Of a stretch of 64,000 bases of DNA, positions 43,799-53,608 are shown one piece after another. How positions within the stretch are numbered: position 1 is the stretch's first letter; every line of letters starts with the position of its first letter. Source of the stretch: Conyzicola nivalis (lineage in GTDB: Bacteria > Actinomycetota > Actinomycetes > Actinomycetales > Microbacteriaceae); the NCBI RefSeq assembly GCF_014639655.1, contig NZ_BMGB01000001.1, positions 1,132,882 to 1,196,881 on the forward strand, given 5' to 3'. The position numbers and the translations under genes are program-made. The notes below the pieces were generated by a model. That model was given only the letters and a program-made list of their open reading frames with translations, did no database searches and was not told the origin of the DNA.

Positions 43799-44449
43799 CT
43801 ACTCCAGCCGGGTCATCCCTCCGAGGCGCGACCCGGCGGAGGCCGCTTCCTCGTGGGCGAGTGCGAGCTCTTCGCGCCCGCGCTCGATCTGGTCGGCGAG
43901 TTCGGGCACAGCCTCGGCGAGCGTGAGACTCGTCGAGACGAGCGTGACCGGCATGCCGAGCGACGTTCCGAGAATCAGCTGCAGCGCGGGCACCGCGTGG
44001 TCCCAACCCGCCGTGGGCGAACCCTCGTCGTAGGAGACCCCGCGGCTGGAGATGATCACCGCCGGCCTGCCCGCCATCGGCTGCTTGTCGCCGGCTGTGA
44101 TGCCCGGCACGTGGATGTGGTCGATCCAGGCCTTAAGCGTCGACGGCATCGAGTAGTTGTAGAGCGGCGCGCCGACGAGGACGACGTCCGCGGTCAGGAG
44201 CTCCTCGATGAGCGCTGCCTGCAATGCGACCGCCTCGGCGGGCGGGTTCGACCCCTCCGGCCTGGCGTGTTCCGGCCAGTGCAGCGAGGAGTCCGCCAGG
44301 TGCGGGAGCGGCGCCCGGTGCAGGTCGCGGTGGGTCACGGTGTTCTGCGGGTCGGCCTCGAGCCACGCGTCGACGAAGGTCTGCCCGATCGCGCGCGACC
44401 GTGAGGTGTCGAGGTCGGCCGAGGAATCGAGGTGCAGGAGGTGCGGCAT
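43799..44449 (-). CDS. azoR: FMN-dependent NADH-azoreductase (AzoR/AcpD-like)
   Basis: A 216-residue flavodoxin-fold oxidoreductase. It begins LLHLDSSADLDTSRSRAIGQTFVDAW, and contains ADVVLVGAPLYNYSMPSTLKAWIDHI, the FMN-binding block of AzoR, and VIISSRGVSYDEGSP. Expected to reduce azo compounds or quinones with NADH. It lies ten bases after the MFS gene at the end of the large catabolic operon, but a TAGCGT box whose TAG is the MFS stop codon stands seven bases before its ATG, so it may also be transcribed alone. Confidence 0.88.
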   Translation of the reverse strand: MPHLLHLDSSADLDTSRSRAIGQTFVDAWLEADPQNTVTHRDLHRAPLPHLADSSLHWPEHARPEGSNPPAEAVALQAALIEELLTADVVLVGAPLYNYSMPSTLKAWIDHIHVPGITAGDKQPMAGRPAVIISSRGVSYDEGSPTAGWDHAVPALQLILGTSLGMPVTLVSTSLTLAEAVPELADQIERGREELALAHEEAASAGSRLGGMTRLE

Positions 44450-44456
44450 GCGGTCA

Positions 44457-44462
44457 ACGCTA
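44457..44462 (-). promoter_or_regulatory. -10 box that overlaps the MFS stop codon
   Basis: On the minus strand TAGCGT begins with the TAG stop of the MFS gene and lies seven bases before the azoR ATG, the same arrangement as TetR/SDR at 34928. Confidence 0.45.
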
Positions 44463-45689
44463 GCCGCTGACGAGGATGGCCTCGCGCCGTGACCCGATCG
44501 ACACCCGCACGATGAGCAGGTTGGCGACCACGAGCACCACCGCGATGACCGCGACGGCCGGCCAGACTCCCGCGGCGTCGAACACCCCGAAGACGAGCAG
44601 TGGACCGACCACGGCGCCGACGTCGCCCGCGGTTCTCGTCACCCCGACCACGACCCCGCTCAGCCCGGCCGGCACGCGCTCGCTCATGATCACCGAGGGC
44701 ACGACACCCGCGACGCTCGACGCGAGTCCGTAGACGACGATGGCGGCGGCGAAGAACCACGGCCCCTCGGCCACCGCGAACAGCAGGAGAGCCAGTGCCG
44801 CCGCGACCGTGGCGGGGACGAGCACCGAGACACGGCGACCACGGTCGATAACGGCGCCGACGAGGGGCATCGCGGCGAGCGATGCCAGGGTCGCGGCCGC
44901 CAGCGCGACCCCGAGGGTGAGCGGGGTGAGACCGCCCTGCTCGTAGGCGAGCAACGGCACGAGTCCCTGCTCGCCGCCGAACCGGGCGAAGAACGCCGCG
45001 AACGAGCCGAGCGCGAGGGCGACGACCACGACGCCGAGACCCGACGAGGCGACCCGGTCGACCGCGGGCCGTGCGCCACGGTCGCCGGCTCGCAACGGTT
45101 GCCAGTAGTGCCGGGCCGGGCGAGCCGCGTCCCAGGCGAGACAGGCCGCGAGAGGCACGCTGGCGACGACGAATGCCACCTCGAGCGGGAACCAGGTGAG
45201 CGCGAGCCCGCCGACGAACGCGCCGAGCGCTCCGGCCGACATCTGCACGGCGGTCGCCGTTGCCATGACGCGCCCTCGCCGGTCGGCGGGAGCCCCGGCC
45301 ACGAGCACCGCGAAGCCGATCGTCACCGCTGCGCCGCCCAGTATGCCCGCGGCGACCCTGGCCGCGATCAGCGTGCCGGTATCCGTACTGAATCCCGTCG
45401 CGGCGGTCACGACGATCAACGACAGGCACACCGCCCGCAGGTACGGCCGCGGACGCCACCAGCGCAGGGCGAGACCGGCGGGGATGTTCGCGATCACCCG
45501 CCCGACCCCGAACGCCGCGACGATGACACCGAGCATGGCCGCGGTCACGCCGAAGCGGTCGACGTACAGCGGGAGCGCCGGCACGATCGTGCCCCACGTC
45601 ATCTGCGTCGAGCCGATGAGACAGCAGAGCAGGATCGTCTGTTCCCACTGCGACGACGCGGATCGCGAGCGCGCGGCCCGCCGGCTCAC
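44460..45689 (-). CDS. MFS transporter in the catabolic operon
   Basis: A 409-residue 12-helix MFS protein. Early region MTWGTIVPALPLYVDRFGVTA, then VGRVIANIPAGLALRWWRPRPYL in the motif-A position, and RVAAGILGGAAVTIGFAVLVAGAPADRRGRVMA later. It resembles DHA1-type drug or sugar efflux proteins. The GTG start at 45689 overlaps the stop of the upstream monooxygenase (GTGA). In this operon it could import a second substrate or export a product or a toxic intermediate. Confidence 0.83.
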   Translation of the reverse strand: MSRRAARSRSASSQWEQTILLCCLIGSTQMTWGTIVPALPLYVDRFGVTAAMLGVIVAAFGVGRVIANIPAGLALRWWRPRPYLRAVCLSLIVVTAATGFSTDTGTLIAARVAAGILGGAAVTIGFAVLVAGAPADRRGRVMATATAVQMSAGALGAFVGGLALTWFPLEVAFVVASVPLAACLAWDAARPARHYWQPLRAGDRGARPAVDRVASSGLGVVVVALALGSFAAFFARFGGEQGLVPLLAYEQGGLTPLTLGVALAAATLASLAAMPLVGAVIDRGRRVSVLVPATVAAALALLLFAVAEGPWFFAAAIVVYGLASSVAGVVPSVIMSERVPAGLSGVVVGVTRTAGDVGAVVGPLLVFGVFDAAGVWPAVAVIAVVLVVANLLIVRVSIGSRREAILVSG

Positions 45690-47041
45690 GACGCGAGGTT
45701 CTCGCGGAGGGTGCGGCCGGGGTAGGCCGCACCCATGGTGCCCCTGCGCCGCAGCTCGGGCACGAGCAGTTCGATGATGTCGACGTACGAACTCGGCATG
45801 CTCAGCGGGTTGCCGATCATGTACCCGCCGCGGGAGCCGGTGGCCGCGAAGTTCTCCTCGAGCTGGTCGGCCAGCTGCGCGGCGGTGCCCGACATCGTCG
45901 TGTCGAAACCCACCGCGTGCTTCCAACCGCGCTCGAAGAACTCGTCGCGGCTCATGTCGTGGTCGGCGCCCAGTTCGGCGACCAGCTGGCCGACGAGTCC
46001 CGAAGGCGACGCACCGGTCGCCACGATCGTCTCGTTAAGCTCGCCGAGGTTGACGGTCGATCCCACGGTGGAGAAGTCGTAGCCCGAGTTGTACGACAGG
46101 TAGGCGCCCACCGCTTCGTCGCCCCAGTAGGCGAGCATCTCGTTCTTGCGCGCGGCCGCCTCCTCCTCGGTGCGCCCGATCACGAGCTGGGTGGCCCAGA
46201 GGATGCCGACAGCCGAAGGGTCGCGGCCGTTCGCGGCGAGTTCGGCGTCGAGCATGCTGCGGTGACGCGTCTGCGAGGCGAGGTTTCCGCCGAAGCCGAA
46301 GATGAGATCGGCGAACTTGGCGCTCGTCGCGATGCCGCGCGGCGAGTTGCCGGCCTGCACGAGCACCGGGTGGCCCTGGGGGCTCGGCACGCTCGTCAGC
46401 GGTCCCTTCACGTCGAAGAACGCGCCGTGGTGGTCGATCGCGTGCACCTTGGCCGGGTCGGCGAACCGTCCCGTCTCGCGGTCCATCACGATCGCGTCGG
46501 GCTCGACGGAGTTCCACAGCCGCTGGCAGACGTCGATGAACTCGTCCATGCGCTCGTAGCGCTGGCCGTGCTCGGGCAGCGAGTCGTAACCGTAGTTCGC
46601 AGCATCCGACACTCTCGTCGACGCGACGACGTTGAAGGCGATGCGTCCGCCGGTGACGTGGTCGAGGGAGTTGAGCAGGCGCGCCACGTAGAACGGGTGC
46701 ATAAACGTCGACGAGTAGGTGAGCCCGAAACCGATGTGCTCGGTGACGGCCGACATGGCCGCGATGAACGGGCTCATGTCGTGGCGGGGCCACTGCACGC
46801 CCCACTCGACGGCGGCGTCGGTGGATCCGCGCCAGGTGTCGGGCAGGCCGGTGCCGTCGCCGAAGAAGAGCATGTCGATTCCGCCGCGTTCGGCGGTGAT
46901 CGCGAGCTCCTGGAACATGCGCACGTCGGGGAACGTGCGGCCGGCCCACGAACCGGGTCGGGCCCAGCGGCCCTCGGTGTGGGTGAACGACAGGTCGAAC
47001 GCGAGGTGCATGTGCGTCGGGTCGGCGTCGGGGTGGTTCAT
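45686..47041 (-). CDS. NtaA/DmoA-family FMN-dependent monooxygenase
   Basis: A 451-residue luciferase-like monooxygenase of the NtaA/SnaA/DszA/DmoA class. Marks: LAFDLSFTHTEGRWARPGSWAG (in pieces), MLFFGDGTGLPDTW, EHIGFGLTYSSTFMHPFYVARLLNSLDHVTGGRIAFNVV (in pieces), HGQRYERMDEFIDVCQRLW, and PVLVQAGNSPRGIATSAKFADLIF. These two-component enzymes use FMNH2 from a separate reductase to oxygenate sulfides, aminopolycarboxylates or heterocycles. Two reductase genes lie at the head of the same operon. ATG at 47041 overlaps the hydrolase stop by ATGA; the MFS start overlaps its own stop. Confidence 0.88.
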   Translation of the reverse strand: MNHPDADPTHMHLAFDLSFTHTEGRWARPGSWAGRTFPDVRMFQELAITAERGGIDMLFFGDGTGLPDTWRGSTDAAVEWGVQWPRHDMSPFIAAMSAVTEHIGFGLTYSSTFMHPFYVARLLNSLDHVTGGRIAFNVVASTRVSDAANYGYDSLPEHGQRYERMDEFIDVCQRLWNSVEPDAIVMDRETGRFADPAKVHAIDHHGAFFDVKGPLTSVPSPQGHPVLVQAGNSPRGIATSAKFADLIFGFGGNLASQTRHRSMLDAELAANGRDPSAVGILWATQLVIGRTEEEAAARKNEMLAYWGDEAVGAYLSYNSGYDFSTVGSTVNLGELNETIVATGASPSGLVGQLVAELGADHDMSRDEFFERGWKHAVGFDTTMSGTAAQLADQLEENFAATGSRGGYMIGNPLSMPSSYVDIIELLVPELRRRGTMGAAYPGRTLRENLAS

Positions 47042-47733
47042 GCGTGCACGGGCTTTCCGGTGATGGCGGTTCGCGCTGCCGCGGAGGCGGGGGCGGATGT
47101 CGCGAAGAGGGTTTCGAGGTCGGTGCTCGTGATGATCTGGCCGACGTTGAGGGCGAGCTGTTCGAGCGCGTTGGCGTTGATGCGCACGTCGTAGGCGGCC
47201 GTGGCGTCCGACGGGATGACGACCGGGAAGTCGAGCTGCATGGCGTCGGTCGCGGTCGCGGCGACACAGCACTCGCTGGTCAGGCCGGTGACCGCCACCC
47301 ATTCGATGCCCGCGTCGCGCAGCAACCCCTCGAGACCGGTCTCGAAGAACCCGCTGTAGACGCGCTTCACCACCCGGATCTCGCCCTCGGCCGGTTCGAG
47401 GCCGTACCACTCGGCACCCGGGGTACCCACGATGCACGGCTCCTCGGGAGACATGGCCGCGTCGAGCGCCGCACCCCGCAGCCAGCCGCTCGACCGCCAC
47501 ACGCGGTCGGGCTGCGAGCCGAGCTCGATCCAGACGACCGGGATCCCCTTCTCCCTGGCGGAGTCGACGAGACGGTCAATGGTGGCGAGGGCGTCGACGA
47601 TCGATGCGGATGCCGCCGCGTCGAGCCCGTAGTCGCCCAGGTAGGCGGGGTCGGCGAACGACCGCTGCACGTCGACGACGAGCAGCGCGCCGGGGAGGCT
47701 CCCGAGAGCCGCGAGATTCACCGCGCCGGTCAT
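47038..47733 (-). CDS. Isochorismatase-fold cysteine hydrolase, RutB-like
   Basis: A 231-residue hydrolase. ALLVVDVQRSFADPAYLG contains the catalytic Asp, the basic residue lies in VVKRVYSGFFETGLEGLLRDAGIEWVAVTGL (read in pieces), and TSECCVAATATDAMQLDF contains the nucleophilic Cys. The RYSGFF-type and T-x-x-CV motifs are those of RutB (ureidoacrylate amidohydrolase) and related amidohydrolases, such as N-carbamoylsarcosine amidase and nicotinamidase-like enzymes. The ATG at 47733 overlaps the stop of the RutA-like gene (ATGA). Together they suggest oxygenative ring opening followed by amide or carbamate cleavage. Confidence 0.85.
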   Translation of the reverse strand: MTGAVNLAALGSLPGALLVVDVQRSFADPAYLGDYGLDAAASASIVDALATIDRLVDSAREKGIPVVWIELGSQPDRVWRSSGWLRGAALDAAMSPEEPCIVGTPGAEWYGLEPAEGEIRVVKRVYSGFFETGLEGLLRDAGIEWVAVTGLTSECCVAATATDAMQLDFPVVIPSDATAAYDVRINANALEQLALNVGQIITSTDLETLFATSAPASAAARTAITGKPVHA

Positions 47734-48815
47734 GCCTGGGCCGACCATGCCTGTGCCGCCCGGTCCGCGTCTTGGGCGCGCAACACCGGAAGCACGCTCT
47801 CGCCGAAGGGCGGCAGGTCGTCGAGGTAGTCGGGGAAGATGATCATCAGCCCGTCGAGCTCGGCGCCCTCGACGACCGTGTTGATGTGGCCGACGATCGT
47901 GTCCGGCGACCCGAAGACGTAGGGGGTCTGGAACGCGTCGTGTCCCGTCGCCGACTCCGTCCACGAGCTGACGCGGTCGCGCGGCATGCCCCATGACACG
48001 CGCATGTTGGCGAGGGCCTCGCGGTCGACGCCGACACCGATCTCGTCGACCCGCTTCTCGGCGAGGGCGTCGGTCTCCGCCATCACGACGGTGAGCATGC
48101 CGTAGGTCTTCACCTCGCGGCCGAGCGCGGCCGCCCGTTCGTGCACGTCGCGCGACGAGTCGCGCAGCTCCTCCATGGTGGCGCCGGAGAGGAAGGCGCC
48201 GTTGCTGCGCCTGGCCTGGAAGTCGCGGCCGGCCGGCGAGTTGCCCGCGCTGATGATCGTGGGCGGCTTCACCGGGTGCGGACGGGACTCCGCGTCGGTG
48301 AGGGTGAAGAATTCGCCGTCCAGCGTCACGGAGTCCTCCGTCCACAGCCGGGTGACCGCCTCGGTCCACTCGTCGACCATGCGGTAGCGCGCCTCCTTCG
48401 ATAGCGTCGCGTCCCACTCCCCCATCTGCATGAACTCCTCGGCGTAGGCGCCCGACACGATGTTCATGCCGGCGCGGCCGCCCGAGATCTGGTCGATCGT
48501 GGTGAACATCTTCGCGGCGACCACCGGGTTGTGCACGTTGGCGTGCACGGTGGCCCAGATCTTGACGCGCGAGGTGGCCTCGGCGATGCCGGCCATCATG
48601 GTCATCGACTCGAGCGTGCGGCCCCAGTGGTCGGTGGAGCCGCCGAAGCCCTTCCACTTGCCCATCGACATCACGAAGTCCATCCCGGCGTCCTCCGCCA
48701 TGATGGCGGCCTTCTTGTTGTAGTCGTAGCTGCCGTCGGGGTGTGGAGCCGTCTCGGAGACGAGCCAGCCCCCGTTGGCTATCGGGAGGAAGATGCCGTA
48801 TTCGCGTTCAGACAT
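47730..48815 (-). CDS. RutA-like flavin-dependent monooxygenase (LLM class)
   Basis: A 361-residue luciferase-like monooxygenase. GIFLPIANGGWLVSETAPH, GFGGSTDHWGRTLESMTMMAG, TSRVKIWATVHANVHNPVVAAKM and DQISGGRAGMNIVSG closely follow the plan of E. coli RutA, the pyrimidine oxygenase that opens uracil between N3 and C4. SfnG-type sulfone monooxygenases are related but match less well in the FGG-x-T-x-x-W-x-x-x-LES stretch. FMNH2 would come from the operon reductases. Its stop overlaps the RutB-like start. The substrate may be a pyrimidine or another N-heterocycle; this is not settled by sequence. Confidence 0.85.
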   Translation of the reverse strand: MSEREYGIFLPIANGGWLVSETAPHPDGSYDYNKKAAIMAEDAGMDFVMSMGKWKGFGGSTDHWGRTLESMTMMAGIAEATSRVKIWATVHANVHNPVVAAKMFTTIDQISGGRAGMNIVSGAYAEEFMQMGEWDATLSKEARYRMVDEWTEAVTRLWTEDSVTLDGEFFTLTDAESRPHPVKPPTIISAGNSPAGRDFQARRSNGAFLSGATMEELRDSSRDVHERAAALGREVKTYGMLTVVMAETDALAEKRVDEIGVGVDREALANMRVSWGMPRDRVSSWTESATGHDAFQTPYVFGSPDTIVGHINTVVEGAELDGLMIIFPDYLDDLPPFGESVLPVLRAQDADRAAQAWSAQA

Positions 48816-48856
48816 GGTGCGTTCTTTCTGTGGCTGGGGTGGAGGGCGGTCGACGG

Positions 48857-49960
48857 TTACGGCGCGGGCCAGATGAGCGTCGTGCCGTCGTAGATGTTCT
48901 CGATGAAGCTGTTGTCGAAGTACGACTGCACGTCGGCGGGGGCCTTCGTGATCTGGTCGGTCTCGACCAGGAAGTCGCTGATCGCGTCGACGTTGGCGGT
49001 GTCGACGAGCCCGATCGGCCGGTCGTCCGGCTGGTTCTCGGTGATGATCTCCGACTCGGTCTCCCAGATCTTGATGTTGTGCGCCACGTCGTATCCCTCG
49101 CCCGACAGCACGGACGCGTACTCGACGCACTCGTCAATGTTCTCGTCGCAGTAGTCGATGGCGTGCAGGCTCGCCCGCATGAAGTCCTCGACGGCCGTGG
49201 GGTTGGCCTCGGCGAAAGCGGGATTGACCGCGACGGTTCCCAGCGAGCTCGGCACCCCGAAGTCGTACGGCCGCCACACGGTCACGTCGAAGTCCGCCGC
49301 CTCGAGCAGGTTGGGCTCGTTCGAGATGAAGCCGGTGAGCGAGTCGACCTGGCCGCGCGGCAGGATCGTGGGGTCGTAGCCCACCACCACCTGCTGGATC
49401 GAGGCCACGTCGACGCCGGCGTTAGTCAGCATCGCCTCGACGGCGGGCGGCATGTTGCCCTTCTGGCCGAGGATGGTGCCGTCGAGTTCGGTGAGGTCCT
49501 TCACGTCGGTGTTCGTCATCAGGATCTCGAGTCCCACGTTGGAGAGCGTCGAGATGCCGAGGATGTCGATGCCGTTGTCCTGGGCCTGGATGAGGTTCTG
49601 CTCGCCCACTCCCGTGAACGTGACCTGGCCGGAGGCGAGCAGCTGGGCGTTCTCGCCGGTGTCGCCGGTTCCCGGCTGGATGTCGACGTCGAGGCACAGC
49701 GCGTCGAAGTAGCCGAGTTCGTCGGCGGCGACGGTGTTCAGAATCGACGCGGACGCCTGATAGAAGTACCCGGTGAGGAAGTTGATCTTCCCCGCCGCCT
49801 TGTTGAGTTCGCAGCGTTCGGCCGAGATGGCGCTGCCCTCGGATGCCGCATCGGCCGAGGTATCGGACGGCGCGGATGCGGTGGGACTGCAGGCGGTGAG
49901 GCCGATCGCGACGGTGGCGATCACCGTCGCGGCGATGGCCAGTCTGGTGCGTGCGGGCAT
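48857..49960 (-). CDS. NMT1/THI5-like ABC substrate-binding lipoprotein
   Basis: A 367-residue receptor. Signal peptide with lipobox LTAC, Cys24. The mature part, after a short acidic linker, reads INFLTGYFYQASASILNTVAADELGYF, then GENAQLLASGQVTFTGVGEQNLIQAQ and SLTGFISNEPNLL, typical of the NMT1/THI5-like fold used by receptors for pyrimidines (ThiY), riboflavin (RibY), sulfonates and nitrate. Four Cys residues in the mature chain (near DALCLDVD and IDYCDENIDECVEYA) may form disulfides. AAGGAG stands seven bases before the ATG. With the permease and ATPase just upstream it forms a complete importer. Confidence 0.88.
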   Translation of the reverse strand: MPARTRLAIAATVIATVAIGLTACSPTASAPSDTSADAASEGSAISAERCELNKAAGKINFLTGYFYQASASILNTVAADELGYFDALCLDVDIQPGTGDTGENAQLLASGQVTFTGVGEQNLIQAQDNGIDILGISTLSNVGLEILMTNTDVKDLTELDGTILGQKGNMPPAVEAMLTNAGVDVASIQQVVVGYDPTILPRGQVDSLTGFISNEPNLLEAADFDVTVWRPYDFGVPSSLGTVAVNPAFAEANPTAVEDFMRASLHAIDYCDENIDECVEYASVLSGEGYDVAHNIKIWETESEIITENQPDDRPIGLVDTANVDAISDFLVETDQITKAPADVQSYFDNSFIENIYDGTTLIWPAP

Positions 49961-50025
49961 AGCTGTCTCCTTGAGATGGGGTTAAGGGTGCGAGCGGTGG
50001 TGCGGGTGGGAATGTGGGGCGCGCG

Positions 50026-50889
50026 TCAGTTCTTCTCGCCGATCATCGACTCGTGCCAGTGCAGGACCCGCCGCTCGATCGCGGTGATGATGGCCAGCAG
50101 CACGGAGCCGAGGATCGCGAGACAGAAGATCGCCGCGTAGACGACGGGCAGGCGGTTGTTCGACGACGCGATGCTGATGACCGTTCCGAGACCCTCGGCC
50201 GCGCCGGGGGCGGCGAGCTCCGCGACGACGGCGCCGATGATCGAGAGCGGGAACACGATGCGCAGTGACGTGAACAGGAACGGCAGCGCGCTGGGCATCC
50301 GCACGTGCCAGAGCATCTCGATGCGCGAGGCGTGCAGCGTCGAGAAGACCTGCACGACCGACTGTGGCACGGAGCGGAGCCCGGTGGACACGTTGATGAG
50401 GATCGGGAAGAAGCAGATCAGCGCCGTGACGATGAGCTTCGGTTCCGGTCCGAACCCGAATGCGACCACGAGCGCGGGCGCGATGGCGACCAGCGGCGTC
50501 ACGTTGAGCACGACCGCCACCGGCATGATGGCCCGTCGCGCGATGGGCAGTTCGGAGATCAGGATCGCGAGCACGTACGAGGCGACGAACCCGATGGCGA
50601 GGCCGATCAGCGCCACGGACAGCGTGACCCAGGCGTTGTGGAGGTAGAAACCCGGATTGCTCGCGAGCGCCTCCCACACCGCGGCGAGCGGCGGCAGCAG
50701 GTACGGGTTGTCTTTCGCGACGAAATTCCAGGCGAAGCCGAGAGCGACGACGAGCACGACCACGGGCAGCCAGTAGGCGGGGCGGACGAAGGAGAAGCGC
50801 GCGGGGATCGCCGCGGTCTTCTTCCGCGGGAGCGTGCTCTCGACGGGTGCCGGGTCCACGCGTGGCGTCACAGGGGTGGTGAGTGTCAT
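50026..50889 (-). CDS. ABC transporter permease (SsuC/ThiX-like)
   Basis: A 287-residue permease of the nitrate/sulfonate/bicarbonate class. The EAA loop is STLHASRIEMLWHVRMPSALPFLFTSLRI (in pieces), preceded by PVAVVLNVTPLVAIAPALVVAFGFGPEPKLIV and FPILINVSTGLRSVPQSVV. Six to seven membrane segments. It lies between the ATPase and receptor genes, 15 and 65 bases away. The class fits the NMT1-like receptor. Confidence 0.9.
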   Translation of the reverse strand: MTLTTPVTPRVDPAPVESTLPRKKTAAIPARFSFVRPAYWLPVVVLVVALGFAWNFVAKDNPYLLPPLAAVWEALASNPGFYLHNAWVTLSVALIGLAIGFVASYVLAILISELPIARRAIMPVAVVLNVTPLVAIAPALVVAFGFGPEPKLIVTALICFFPILINVSTGLRSVPQSVVQVFSTLHASRIEMLWHVRMPSALPFLFTSLRIVFPLSIIGAVVAELAAPGAAEGLGTVISIASSNNRLPVVYAAIFCLAILGSVLLAIITAIERRVLHWHESMIGEKN

Positions 50890-50904
50890 GGTTGTTTCCC
50901 GTCC

Positions 50905-51741
50905 CTAGGCCGCGCTCGAGGCCGGATTGCTCACGGGGTTCTCGCGCCACGCGGCCTGGAGGTGGTCGCGGATCGTGTCTTCGAAGTGGTGGAATTCTGG
51001 TGTCTTCAACATCGCCTCGCTGCGCGGGCGCGGGAGCGTGATGTCGACGGACGCCGTGACCCGGCCGGGACCCGACGACATCACGAGGACCTTGTCGGAG
51101 AGCCGCACGGCCTCCGTCACCGAGTGGGTGACGAAGACGACGGTCGTGTTCATCTGGTCCCAGATGTCGAGCAGTTGCCCCTGGATCGACTCGCGGGTGA
51201 ACTCGTCGAGCGCCGAGAACGGCTCGTCCATCAACAGCACGTCGGGCTGAACCCCGAAGGCCCGCACGATCGCGGTGCGCTGCTGCATGCCGCCGCTCAA
51301 CTGCGCGGGCAGCTTGTGCACGGCGTCGCCGAGCCCGGCCTTCTGCAGCAGGTCGCGCATGTCCGGCGCCGCCTTCGCCACATGCCCGCCGATTTTCTGG
51401 CGTCGTCGGTCGGCGCCGGGGTTGACCTTCGCCGGCAGGCTCACGTTCTTGAGCACGTCGAGCCACGGCAGCAGCGCGGGAGTCTGCGGAACGAGTCCGA
51501 TCATCTTCGCGGCGCAAGCACGTTCCGGTGTCACCCCGAAGACGCTCACGTCGCCGTCGTCGGCCTGCTCGAGTCCGGCGATGAGGCGCAGCAGGGTGGA
51601 CTTGCCACAGCCGGACGGTCCGATGATGCTCACGAACTGGCCGCGCTCGATCGTGACGTCGACGCCGTTGAGGGCGACGTGCTGGCCCGCGCCCGATCCG
51701 TAGATCTTCACGGCCTTGCTGATGGCGATGGTGTCTGACAC
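50905..51741 (-). CDS. ABC transporter ATP-binding protein (SsuB/ThiZ-like)
   Basis: A 278-residue ATPase. Walker A GPSGCGKSTLLRLIAGLE near residue 42, Q-loop LVPQTPALLPWLDVLKNV, signature LSGGMQQRTAIVRAF, Walker B LLMDEPFSALDEFTRE and switch VFVTHSVTEAVRLSDKV. These are the marks of the nitrate/sulfonate/taurine family. An insertion of about 15 residues between Q-loop and signature (NPGADRRRQKIGGHVAKAA) is slightly unusual. GTG start three bases after the flavin reductase stop. Confidence 0.9.
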   Translation of the reverse strand: MSDTIAISKAVKIYGSGAGQHVALNGVDVTIERGQFVSIIGPSGCGKSTLLRLIAGLEQADDGDVSVFGVTPERACAAKMIGLVPQTPALLPWLDVLKNVSLPAKVNPGADRRRQKIGGHVAKAAPDMRDLLQKAGLGDAVHKLPAQLSGGMQQRTAIVRAFGVQPDVLLMDEPFSALDEFTRESIQGQLLDIWDQMNTTVVFVTHSVTEAVRLSDKVLVMSSGPGRVTASVDITLPRPRSEAMLKTPEFHHFEDTIRDHLQAAWRENPVSNPASSAA

Positions 51742-51744
51742 GGT

Positions 51745-52272
51745 TTAGACCAACTTCCTGAACGCGCGGTTCTGATAAACGAGGGGCTCGACGTCGGCGC
51801 GCAGCACGTCGTCGACGTGGACGATGATCATGAGGTGGTCCCCCACGGTCCAGCGCTCGTGCACCCGACCGACGATGGATGCCGCGGCGCCCGTCACGAC
51901 GGGAACGTGGTCGTACTCGTGGTGCAGTTCGACCGCCGCAAACTTGTCGACGCCCTTGGTGGCGAAGTGCTTGGCGATGTCGCCCTGGCCGTCGGCGAGG
52001 ATGTTCACCGCCAGGTGCGTCGTGCGGGCGAACGCCGGGTAGCTCTCGGCCGTCTCGGCGAGGAACACGGCCACGAGTGGCGGCGAGACCGAGACGCTCG
52101 TGAAGCTGTTGGCGGTGAACCCGTAGGGCGTGCCGTCGATCTTGGTGGTGACGAGCGTGACCGACGTCGCCATGCCGGCGAGGGCGCGGCGCAGTTGTCC
52201 CGCGTCGAATCCGGGAGGCGATTCGAGGTAAGTTCCGGATGACTCGGCTACCGCTGTGTCGACGTTCGTCAT
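51745..52272 (-). CDS. Flavin reductase family protein (RutF/HpaC-like)
   Basis: A 175-residue FMN-binding split-barrel reductase. LRRALAGMATSVTLVTTKIDGTPYGFTANSFTSVSVSPPLVAVFL (in pieces) is the classic flavin-reductase-like opening, then THLAVNILADGQGDIAKHFATKGVDKF and HLMIIVHVDDV. Such enzymes supply reduced FMN to two-component monooxygenases, here the RutA-like and DmoA-like proteins. ATG at 52272 overlaps the stop of the preceding FMN reductase (ATGA). Confidence 0.9.
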   Translation of the reverse strand: MTNVDTAVAESSGTYLESPPGFDAGQLRRALAGMATSVTLVTTKIDGTPYGFTANSFTSVSVSPPLVAVFLAETAESYPAFARTTHLAVNILADGQGDIAKHFATKGVDKFAAVELHHEYDHVPVVTGAAASIVGRVHERWTVGDHLMIIVHVDDVLRADVEPLVYQNRAFRKLV

Positions 52273-52793
52273 GCCGCCACCCCCGCGAGCGAACCGAGGA
52301 CGACCGAGCGGCGCTCGATCCACTCGGCGATGGCCGTGTCGCGCTGTGCACCATCGGCGGCCACCGCGTCGGGGAGGAACAGACCGCCGAGCGGGCTGAG
52401 CGCGCCGAGCTCGTCGAGCACGGGCTGCAGGTGGGTTCCGCCGGCGAGCGAGTGCTGCGGCGACGCGGCGATCGTCAGCGGCACTGCGAACGTCGAGGAG
52501 AGCGCTCCGGGTCCGTACCCGTCGAGGAACGCCTTGAGCAGGCCCGTGTAGGAGCCCTTGTAGACCGGCGTGGCCACGACGAGCAGCTGCACCGCGGCGA
52601 GCCGGGCACGCTCGCCGGCCACACCGGCGTCGGAGCTGTCGAGAACGCGGCCGCCGAATTCGGCGAGGTCGACCACGCCGGCGTCCGACGCTCCGAGCGC
52701 GTCGGTGAGGCTGGCCACGAGCGAGCGTGTCGCCGCGAGAGTCTTCGAATCGGCACGTGGGTTGCCCACGACGCCGCTGATCAGGAAAGTCAC
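52269..52793 (-). CDS. NAD(P)H-dependent FMN reductase (SsuE/MsuE-like)
   Basis: A 174-residue flavodoxin-like reductase. It begins FLISGVVGNPRADSKTLAATRSL with the phosphate-binding S-x-R/K-S pattern, and has LLVVATPVYKGSYTGLLKAFLD followed by PLTIAASPQHSLAG, typical of SsuE/MsuE. A second source of FMNH2 in the operon. SsuE-type reductases often serve sulfonate monooxygenases, one hint that the substrate could contain sulfur. GTG start with GGAGG eight bases upstream. First gene of the catabolic operon. Confidence 0.88.
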   Translation of the reverse strand: MTFLISGVVGNPRADSKTLAATRSLVASLTDALGASDAGVVDLAEFGGRVLDSSDAGVAGERARLAAVQLLVVATPVYKGSYTGLLKAFLDGYGPGALSSTFAVPLTIAASPQHSLAGGTHLQPVLDELGALSPLGGLFLPDAVAADGAQRDTAIAEWIERRSVVLGSLAGVAA

Positions 52794-52886
52794 TTGTGCC
52801 TCCAGGGCTCAGATCCGTCGAAAAGAGAGAAGGAGAGCGAACGGGTGAAGAGATTCGCCTCTCGAGAGGAACGCTGTCGAGAAGGA

Positions 52887-52913
52887 AGCTAATGGCCCGC
52901 GGAGGTCCGTTAG
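52887..52913. promoter_or_regulatory. Candidate promoter/operator of the catabolic operon
   Basis: On the minus strand TAGCTT (complement of 52887-52892) could be the -10 of the operon, giving a leader of roughly 85 bases. It is overlapped by an imperfect inverted repeat CTAATGG (52889-52895) and CCGTTAG (52907-52913). No regulator gene is adjacent, so this is only a candidate. Confidence 0.35.
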
Positions 52914-52928
52914 TGAGACAGTACAGAC

Positions 52929-52978
52929 CGAGTGTTACGCGAAAGCGACGGGTTCTGTTTCGCGCGCGTAAACACTCG
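52929..52978 (-). terminator. Long stem-loop between the orphan gene and the operon
   Basis: CGAGTGTTACGCGAAA (from 52929) pairs with TTTCGCG and then GTAAACACTCG (to 52978) with a small bulge. It starts three bases beyond the stop codon of the gene at 52981. It lacks a U-run, so it may be a Rho-independent terminator of weak type or a processing structure. Confidence 0.5.
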
Positions 52979-52980
52979 CC

Positions 52981-53397
52981 CTAGGCCGTGAGCAGGTGCA
53001 GCGAACCGTCGGCGGTGTGGAACGAGTAGACGTCGACCTGCTGTGCTTTCGCGGCGCTGAGTGGCCAGGATGCCGAGGTGAAGAACCTCGCCTGCGGCTC
53101 GGCGACGCAGAGAACCAGTCGGGGTCTCGTCGGCAATACACCGCGCAGCCAGACGAGTTTGAACATGTCGGCGAGGGCGCCCATACGGTGGGTCGAGCGC
53201 GCCTCGCCAAGGTACGGGACGAGCTGCACGAGCACGCTCTCGGCCTGGTCGATGCCCTCGACCTCCACCCGGAGGTTTCCGGGCAGTTGCAGGGTGCGCG
53301 GTTCGAGGTCGACCCTGAGCAGGGCGCCGAGTGCGCGCAACATGGCGTGTTCCGTCGATTCCTCGGCGATTCGACCCGTCGTTCCGATGTGCCCCAC
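52981..53397 (-). CDS. Unrecognised small protein
   Basis: A 138-residue soluble protein that I cannot place. It has an amphipathic opening, AMLRALGALLRVDLEPRTL, a mixed alpha/beta middle, VEVEGIDQAESVLVQLVPYL and VLPTRPRLVLCVAEPQARFF, and ends TADGSLHLLTA. The pattern hints at a restriction-endonuclease-like or PD-(D/E)XK-type small fold, but no motif is certain. GTG at 53397 is preceded by GAGGTG; ATG at 53343 is an alternative. It stands alone between the tRNA gene and the catabolic operon. Confidence 0.6.
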   Translation of the reverse strand: MGHIGTTGRIAEESTEHAMLRALGALLRVDLEPRTLQLPGNLRVEVEGIDQAESVLVQLVPYLGEARSTHRMGALADMFKLVWLRGVLPTRPRLVLCVAEPQARFFTSASWPLSAAKAQQVDVYSFHTADGSLHLLTA

Positions 53398-53531: not shown

Positions 53532-53608
53532 TGGTGGATCCAAGGGGATTCGAACCCCTGACCCCCTGCATGCCATGCAGGTGCGCTACCGGGCTGCGCC
53601 ATGGACCC
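53532..53608 (-). tRNA. tRNA-Ala (anticodon GGC)
   Basis: A 77-nt tRNA with encoded CCA. Acceptor stem GGGTCCA/TGGATCC carries the G3-U70 wobble pair that identifies alanine tRNAs. D-arm GCGCAGCCCGGTAGCGC, anticodon stem CCTGC/GCAGG with loop ATGGCAT (anticodon GGC), T-arm with GGTTCGAATCC. It decodes GCC/GCU codons; GCC is heavily used here. It is followed by a terminator at 53496-53523. Confidence 0.96.

Follow-up and report, generated by a model that had tools for sequence, protein, structure and literature searches.

A 64,000-nucleotide stretch of the Conyzicola nivalis genome (contig NZ_BMGB01000001.1, positions 1,132,882 to 1,196,881; the window) carries a run of ten genes, g01 to g10, on its minus strand between positions 43799 and 52793. 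They encode an ABC importer, two flavin-dependent monooxygenases, an amidohydrolase, flavin reductases and a second type of transporter, and are preceded by a structured leader RNA and by the gene of a small protein, c8. The operon is real and widespread in actinomycetes; within the genomes searched, the leader RNA is almost confined to the region ahead of it, and RNA and c8 nearly always occur together. For the substrate class, the order of the enzymatic steps, the control by GlnR and the action of c8 on the RNA, we infer the following, to which we give a probability of about one half: the operon would scavenge nitrogen from a pyrimidine-2,4-dione-like ring compound that is larger than uracil and is taken up from outside, under GlnR-type control and with c8 acting on the leader RNA. 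A literature search (titles and beginnings of abstracts) found no description of the gene set or of the leader RNA.

All ten genes of the host (3.34 Mb, 99.96% complete) gave a match to the expected Pfam family, and four junctions overlap by four bases (ATGA three times, GTGA once). An earlier note on the window, made from its letters alone, had described an operon-like run with such overlaps; coordinates and families agreed with it, and its gene list was correct for the ten genes but lacked c8 and the leader RNA directly upstream. In the direction of transcription, g01 (52269-52793) encodes an SsuE/MsuE-like NAD(P)H:FMN reductase, g02 (51745-52272) a flavin reductase of the HpaC/RutF type, and g03 (50905-51741) and g04 (50026-50889) the ATPase and the permease of the ABC importer; these were named from Pfam and NCBIfam, the importer genes also from their conservation. 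The NMT1/THI5-like substrate-binding lipoprotein g05 (48857-49960) was assigned by Pfam, a Protein Data Bank (PDB) sequence match and a structure model. NCBIfam and PDB matches identified g06 (47730-48815) as a RutA-like FMNH2-dependent monooxygenase (with a tree and residue comparison), g07 (47038-47733) as an isochorismatase-fold amidohydrolase resembling RutB and biuret hydrolase (with residue comparison), and g08 (45686-47041) as an FMNH2-dependent monooxygenase of the NtaA/DmoA family. The run ends with a major facilitator superfamily (MFS) transporter, g09 (44460-45689), for which export is assumed, and an AzoR-like FMN-dependent reductase, g10 (43799-44449), both again from Pfam and NCBIfam.

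Judged by g06, the closest relatives with a name belong to the Microbacteriaceae (Glaciihabitans, Agreia, Cryobacterium). Of 299 genomes of the family, 21 had matches to g06 at E<=1e-60; the best copy was 55-100% identical in 20 of them, the window's own included, and 36% in the 21st, and g06, g07 and g08 remained together in 19 of those 20. A scan of a species-genome collection returned 319 relatives of g06, and the best 80, referred to here as the named loci (L numbers), span Microbacteriaceae, Micromonosporaceae, Streptomycetaceae, Nocardiopsidaceae, Pseudonocardiaceae and others. Because it was found with patterns from the RutA-like protein, this set leans to close relatives. Gene content, based on a home-made gene caller, was counted in the 70 named loci with a flank of at least 5.5 kb before and at least 4.5 kb after g06. 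The six-gene core (three importer genes, RutA-like, isochorismatase-like and DmoA-like) was complete in 48 of the 70; the importer genes were kept in 63, the hydrolase in 58, the DmoA-like gene in 51 and the MFS gene in 44. Reductases of the window's type were less common (g01 in 13, g02 in 10), and 27 loci had another flavin reductase. The order that the earlier note had proposed to look for in other actinobacteria thus recurs across families, which argues that the gene set is not a product of chance. Two Actinoplanes homologues of g06 (L104, L115) stand outside such an operon and face a P450-like gene and a BMP-type ABC importer, both named from reading the sequence.

The leader RNA (52826-52916, minus strand) was delineated by alignment and a covariance model. 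It lies between c8 and g01 and reads GGA-yy-TCCGCG...CGC-n-CGCTCTCC, the last element being its conserved 3' strand. In the window, helix P1 pairs GGA (52906-52908) with TCC (52832-52834), and P2 starts with 52900 paired to 52841. The window matched the model with 40.9 bits (E 2.4e-8), while two other matches in the genome were at chance level (E 0.24 and 0.63). The leader set comprised 73 sources, picked since the RNA had already been seen there; the model matched all of them, though six only weakly: L129, L065, L126 and L075 (E 0.01 to 0.19) and L119 and L095 (near E 0.001-0.005). A plain MAFFT alignment of 40 leaders (A4) displayed an outer helix of 3-4 base pairs and an inner one of 5-7, the same picture as alignment A5, which was fitted to its own model and whose statistics include one spurious row (minus strand of L080). 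Over the 67 distinct rows of A5, 85.3% of the cells were paired compared to 75.5% after shuffling; covariation was 0.246 compared to 0.086 (0 of 500 shuffles as high) and did not exceed 0.123 when the strands were slid. Pair 20-96 was never broken, although it was GC in 33 rows, UA in 21, AU in 11 and CG in 2. The element thus shows, in a predicted 5' leader, the conserved fold and the compensating base changes that are expected of a cis-regulatory RNA, and we regard it as a candidate for one.

The surroundings of the RNA suggest a promoter between c8 and g01. All 73 leaders had a TAnnnT hexamer that ended 9-15 bases ahead of the RNA (after shuffling, mean 4.25 and maximum 10 leaders; these controls and those below were single-base, not dinucleotide, shuffles), so that the RNA should lie at the transcript start. 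The -10-like TACTGT of the window (52918-52923, minus strand), called from the sequence and this conservation, stands nine bases ahead of the GGA of the RNA. Within 110 bases ahead of the leader RNA, 29 of the 73 loci contained a TnAC-n6-GnAAC box (shuffled mean 0.24, maximum 2); a box of this exact form was not found in the other 44 leaders. The boxes resemble published GlnR boxes of the gTnAC-n6-GaAAC type (PMC10704036). In the window, the sequence, the enrichment across loci and the published consensus together mark a GlnR-like box of the form TTTAC-n6-GAAAC (TTTAC-GCGCGC-GAAAC, 52957-52972, minus strand), and a further GTAAC lies beside it (52934-52938, same strand).

The gene for c8 (52981-53397, minus strand) precedes the leader; in Actinoplanes-type loci it is located at the opposite end of the operon. 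It was defined by its conservation and by a structure model, and encodes 138 amino acids for which neither Pfam nor NCBIfam gave a match at E<=0.001. A tRNA gene (53535-53608, minus strand) lies directly upstream of it. The c8 model (pLDDT 93.4) was closest in Foldseek to XisH (2okf; TM 0.63, E 2.6e-4) and, more weakly, to the CARF nucleases Card1/Can2, the fold matches overall ranging from E 2.6e-4 to 1.4e-2 at 8-15% identity. We take XisH and Card1/Can2 to be PD-(D/E)XK proteins, and in its predicted structure c8 has a PD-(D/E)XK-like core fold. Residues E45, E47, D50, Q58 and K80 were invariant in 12 of 12 sequences; no E-x-K was seen, nor a lysine two positions past Q58. Thus, c8 is like XisH and Card1/Can2 in its fold but differs from them in that the canonical E-x-K is not obvious and in that it is tied to one catabolic operon. 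Of 149 genomes of the order, 5 had relatives of c8, that of G600 being a distant one.

RNA and c8 were compared across the 80 named loci, three of which are cut off upstream (L100, L134, L135). The remaining 77 comprised 66 RNA-positive loci (including L062 and L103, from the wider genome search), seven RNA-negative ones (L083, L084, L092, L104, L115, L121, L124) and four in which the RNA was unclear (L066, L070, L086, L136), all four of which carry c8. c8 was found in 65 of the 66 RNA-positive genomes, 63 times in the locus (the match of L076 spans only positions 8-59 of 143) and twice at a distance: in two Subtercola genomes (L112, L109), it lies 21 and 33 kb away, the matches spanning one TGA each with an open frame of 136 amino acids. 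None of the seven RNA-negative genomes had c8 in a genome search at E<=1e-5, and two of these seven (L084, L121) keep importer, RutA-like, hydrolase and DmoA-like genes, the other five being reduced. Since c8 is co-present even when unlinked by 21-33 kb, physical linkage alone is an insufficient explanation. The losses are few and partly common to related species, and we give no p-value for them. The shared retention and loss of RNA and c8 points to c8 as a possible dedicated regulator of the leader. Another candidate for this role, a neighbouring gene in Subtercola (c15/k17), was set aside, as the one scanned encodes a DUF4190 protein.

Placement of the RNA was examined in genome-wide searches. 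Among 37 operon-bearing genomes, 32 matched the model at E<=0.01; for the other five, a search restricted to the locus gave clear matches in L068 and L071, weak ones in L065 and L126 and none in L084. Of 394 genomes of the class, 12 had matches at E<=1e-3; the eight that scored above 31.5 bits stand ahead of this operon, and the five weaker ones do not. Second, weak matches of 24.8-25.3 bits occurred in three of the 37 genomes and in one sister genome (L195-L198). We took the weaker matches as chance hits, because they lie away from operon genes and several fall within coding sequence. In two Agreia genomes, the same 24.8-bit match (L195, L196) adjoins one conserved gene outside the operon, and was taken as a chance hit shared by descent. 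A search for the ligand of the RNA through other controlled genes was not productive, as none of the weaker matches (L141, L142, L150-L154, L195-L198) lies beside operon genes.

Given this placement, the leader could be a metabolite-sensing riboswitch for the substrate of the operon, with c8 an unrelated operon member. The hairpin is compact and conserved, has an internal loop and lies close to where the message is predicted to start, ahead of a single catabolic operon; in Streptomyces loci its 3' strand can pair over 8 bases with the ribosome-binding region. With G-U pairs allowed, this pairing can extend over 8-9 bases in Streptomyces, Nonomuraea, Leifsonia and many Nocardiopsis, and its mean over the 73 leaders was 6.85 compared to 5.86 after shuffling. 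We hold a riboswitch to be a tentative possibility at somewhat below even odds; the RNA and c8 co-occur genome-wide even where they are unlinked, which a free-standing riboswitch would not need. A known riboswitch was rejected for the window and for the 15 of 24 neighbourhood loci searched: at the gathering level of Rfam 15, the window yielded one tRNA only, its leader was unmatched, and the 15 loci gave no match. Nor did a search of two leaders at E<=10 bring up a related family, that of the window returning one unrelated hit (E 2.7). The NMT1 (xanthine) riboswitch is likewise a leader RNA ahead of an NMT1-type transporter, but the leader of the window has no Rfam match at gathering level.

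The conserved leader might instead be a DNA operator, for c8 or for another protein, and no RNA structure at all. It lies directly behind the -10-like hexamer, where operators often sit, and c8 could bind DNA. We consider this improbable, as the length of the loop is highly variable across the leaders and 27 of 67 rows have a G-U at pair 21-95, which favours an RNA over a DNA palindrome. For the preferred reading, in which c8 acts on a leader RNA, it is conceivable, if doubtful, that RNA and protein constitute a new two-part regulator, a small nuclease-fold protein that switches a nitrogen-heterocycle operon through binding or cutting one leader hairpin, and that the operon degrades a ring compound without a described pathway.

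The receptor of the importer bears on the nature of this compound. At E<=0.001, the only PDB sequence match of g05 was the formyl-aminopyrimidine binder ThiY. The fold search with the g05 model (pLDDT 87.3) also ranked ThiY first (3ix1, E 7.9e-21), followed by a thiamin-bound protein (4nmy, 2.8e-17) and Thi5 (9.3e-17), with the sulfur receptors lower (TauA 2.1e-14, E. coli SsuA 1.5e-12). By its model, g05 is nearest the pyrimidine/thiamin-type binders.

One possible substrate is a flavin or a flavin breakdown product (riboflavin, lumichrome or another alloxazine), the end ring of which is a uracil; the DmoA-like enzyme would remove the side chain in the manner of the riboflavin lyase RcaE, and the RutA/RutB-like pair would open the ring for its nitrogen. 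A riboflavin kinase gene is part of the riboflavin catabolic (rca) cluster. Riboflavin kinase domains were found in or directly behind the operon in 18 of the 80 named loci, 12 of them fused to the MFS protein (one also to a flavin reductase) and 6 not, and in Actinosynnema a 788-amino-acid protein (L081:13070-15436) joins MFS, riboflavin kinase and flavin reductase. These domains were called with a hidden Markov model built from motif hits, and Pfam confirmed four of them (L041, L065, L074, L081). In four Herbiconiux-type loci (L034, L036, L037, L040), a related importer (44-48% identical) stands in a divergent operon with a DmoA-family monooxygenase, the best PDB match of which was RcaE with 296 bits in the one locus tested (L037). 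By reading, this divergent operon also contains alcohol-dehydrogenase-like and LacI-like proteins. The kinase domains and the Herbiconiux-type loci show, on the level of sequence, a tie to flavin supply but no proof of a flavin as substrate. The kinase may merely supply FMN, and the operon of the window has none, the sole flavokinase match of the genome lying elsewhere. g08 was nearer to DszA (251.8 bits), LadA (236.2), DmoA (217.8) and HcbA1 (196.8) than to RcaE (179.4), and Rfam found no FMN riboswitch in the loci searched. In the main text of the study on the lumichrome route (Lum cluster, Nocardioides), the ring is opened by hydrolases and the word RutA is absent (PMC12746152). The window operon thus resembles RcaE of Microbacterium and Lum in having a monooxygenase of the LLM family, riboflavin kinase in some relatives and, presumably, a uracil-containing ring under attack, but differs in that RcaE is not the closest relative of g08 and in that Lum opens the ring by hydrolysis. 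A flavin substrate appears rather unlikely to us.

A diverged Rut pathway for uracil or thymine with another importer would account for the adjacent RutA-like and RutB-like genes: the best PDB match of g06 was RutA (192.5 bits), and RutB was the second match of g07 (57.1 bits). Both proteins are nevertheless far below the family cut-offs, and therefore this is not a Rut operon. g06 scored 238.6 bits against the RutA model TIGR03612 (NCBIfam equivalog cut-off, 498.3), which no other gene of the host genome passes either, and g07 scored 65.0 bits against RutB (TIGR03614), which has a cut-off of 377.95, and 61.2 against biuret hydrolase, which has one of 370. The tree comprised 29 rows, and the program warned of long branches; in it, E. 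coli RutA joined another actinobacterial type (support 98/95), and the clade of g06 was separate from it (94/98). That other type is a second operon in the family (L051, 5781-10717; L052, 7290-12276; L054, 6809-11770), with an asparaginase-like protein, a RutA-like enzyme grouping with that of E. coli, a DmoA-like protein 54-57% identical to g08 and a GntR/UTRA regulator. In two further loci (L050, L053), RutA-like enzymes 37-42% identical to g06 have as neighbours a TENA/THI-4 protein, an amidohydrolase and an importer that by reading resembles ThiXYZ; these neighbourhoods may serve thiamin-pyrimidine breakdown.

Residues of E. coli RutA, which opens uracil at N3-C4 with FMNH2 and O2, were mapped onto g06 by alignment, with a residue numbering that we assigned ourselves. 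The positions of Lys69, Asn134, Val136 and Glu143 were invariant in 19 of 19 g06 relatives, whereas that of Trp139 was Ala in 13 and Ser in 6, which would leave more room in the pocket of g06. Asp-Lys-Cys is the catalytic triad of isochorismatase-fold amidohydrolases, and it was kept in the hydrolases (83 rows, some genomes twice: Asp in 82 with one gap, Lys and Cys in all 83). g08 scored 379.9 bits against the NtaA/DmoA subfamily TIGR03860 (cut-off 279.7). As the earlier note had observed, a second monooxygenase and a dedicated ABC importer are present, and Pfam and NCBIfam placed no RutC, RutD, RutE or RutG among the ten genes. The operon therefore shares with E. coli Rut (RutA-RutB-RutF) the RutA-like enzyme beside a RutB-like amidohydrolase, the flavin reductase and a nitrogen-scavenging logic, but differs in its separate clade, the absent partners, the importer, the conserved second monooxygenase and a larger predicted pocket. 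We regard a diverged Rut pathway as improbable.

The earlier note had left open a non-uracil heterocycle or an organosulfur compound. The former gains from the missed Rut cut-offs, the separate clade of g06 and the pyrimidine/thiamin-type receptor, while the latter is weakened by the fold ranking and the nitrogen-control boxes. The note had also named clustering of both monooxygenases with SsuD or SfnG, and absence of the hydrolase, as points that would count against its proposal; in the tree, which was run for g06 only, SfnG was distant, and the hydrolase stood beside g06 in 58 of 70 loci. Neither monooxygenase reached the cut-offs of SfnG (382.95) or SsuD (518.2), g06 scoring 177.9 and 82.1 bits and g08 63.6 and 47.0. 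The run shares an SsuE-like reductase, an ABC importer and an LLM-family monooxygenase with ssu, tau and sfn operons; g05 scored 43.8 bits against the SsuA family, where the cut-off is 163.5, and the best PDB match of g08 was DszA. Scavenging of a sulfonate or sulfone in the manner of ssu, sfn or dsz operons is nevertheless quite improbable in view of the pyrimidine/thiamin-type receptor model, the distance of SfnG, the nitrogen-control boxes and an amidohydrolase that would have no clear role.

Several observations weigh against the reading that we prefer. In the RNA, 26 of 66 rows break the outermost pair of P1, 28 and 25 of 67 break the two pairs of P2 on the loop side, and the number of further pair types (13) was not clearly above the shuffled mean of 11.3 (87 of 500 shuffles as high). 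The 3' strand in the window can pair downstream over 5 bases only, which lends no support, in that leader, to a masked ribosome-binding site. For c8, one locus (L133) has the RNA but lacks c8, and one genome (G600) has a distant c8 relative (47 bits) with neither the RNA nor operon genes within the 7.5 kb examined. Four of the seven RNA-negative loci are without importer genes beside g06 and a fifth is without g07 and g08; RNA and c8 may have been lost jointly through decay of the operon. On the side of the substrate and its control, the position of RutA Leu65 in the O2 pocket is Met in 19 of 19 g06 relatives, and several Nocardiopsis loci are without the DmoA-like gene, which cannot be essential everywhere. 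The main text of the S. venezuelae GlnR paper names no monooxygenase, NMT1 or isochorismatase.

With these points taken into account, we propose that the ABC importer would take up a ring compound and that the flavin reductases would supply FMNH2, in some relatives with a riboflavin kinase of their own. The DmoA-like enzyme could oxidise or N-dealkylate a substituent of the ring, the RutA-like enzyme would open the ring at an amide bond, and the isochorismatase-like hydrolase would cleave the exposed ureido group to carbamate and thence ammonia. The MFS protein may export the remaining skeleton, and AzoR may deal with reactive products. Transcription from the promoter between c8 and g01 would be under GlnR-type nitrogen control, and the mRNA would start with the structured leader, which c8 most likely binds or cuts, thereby setting expression of the operon. 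An operon that is widespread in actinomycetes comes with what may be a new class of leader RNA and with a companion protein outside the catalogued families. Should c8 act on the RNA, dedicated control of mRNA leaders would be a new role for nuclease-fold proteins; should the leader be a riboswitch, the substrate of the operon could be read from its ligand.

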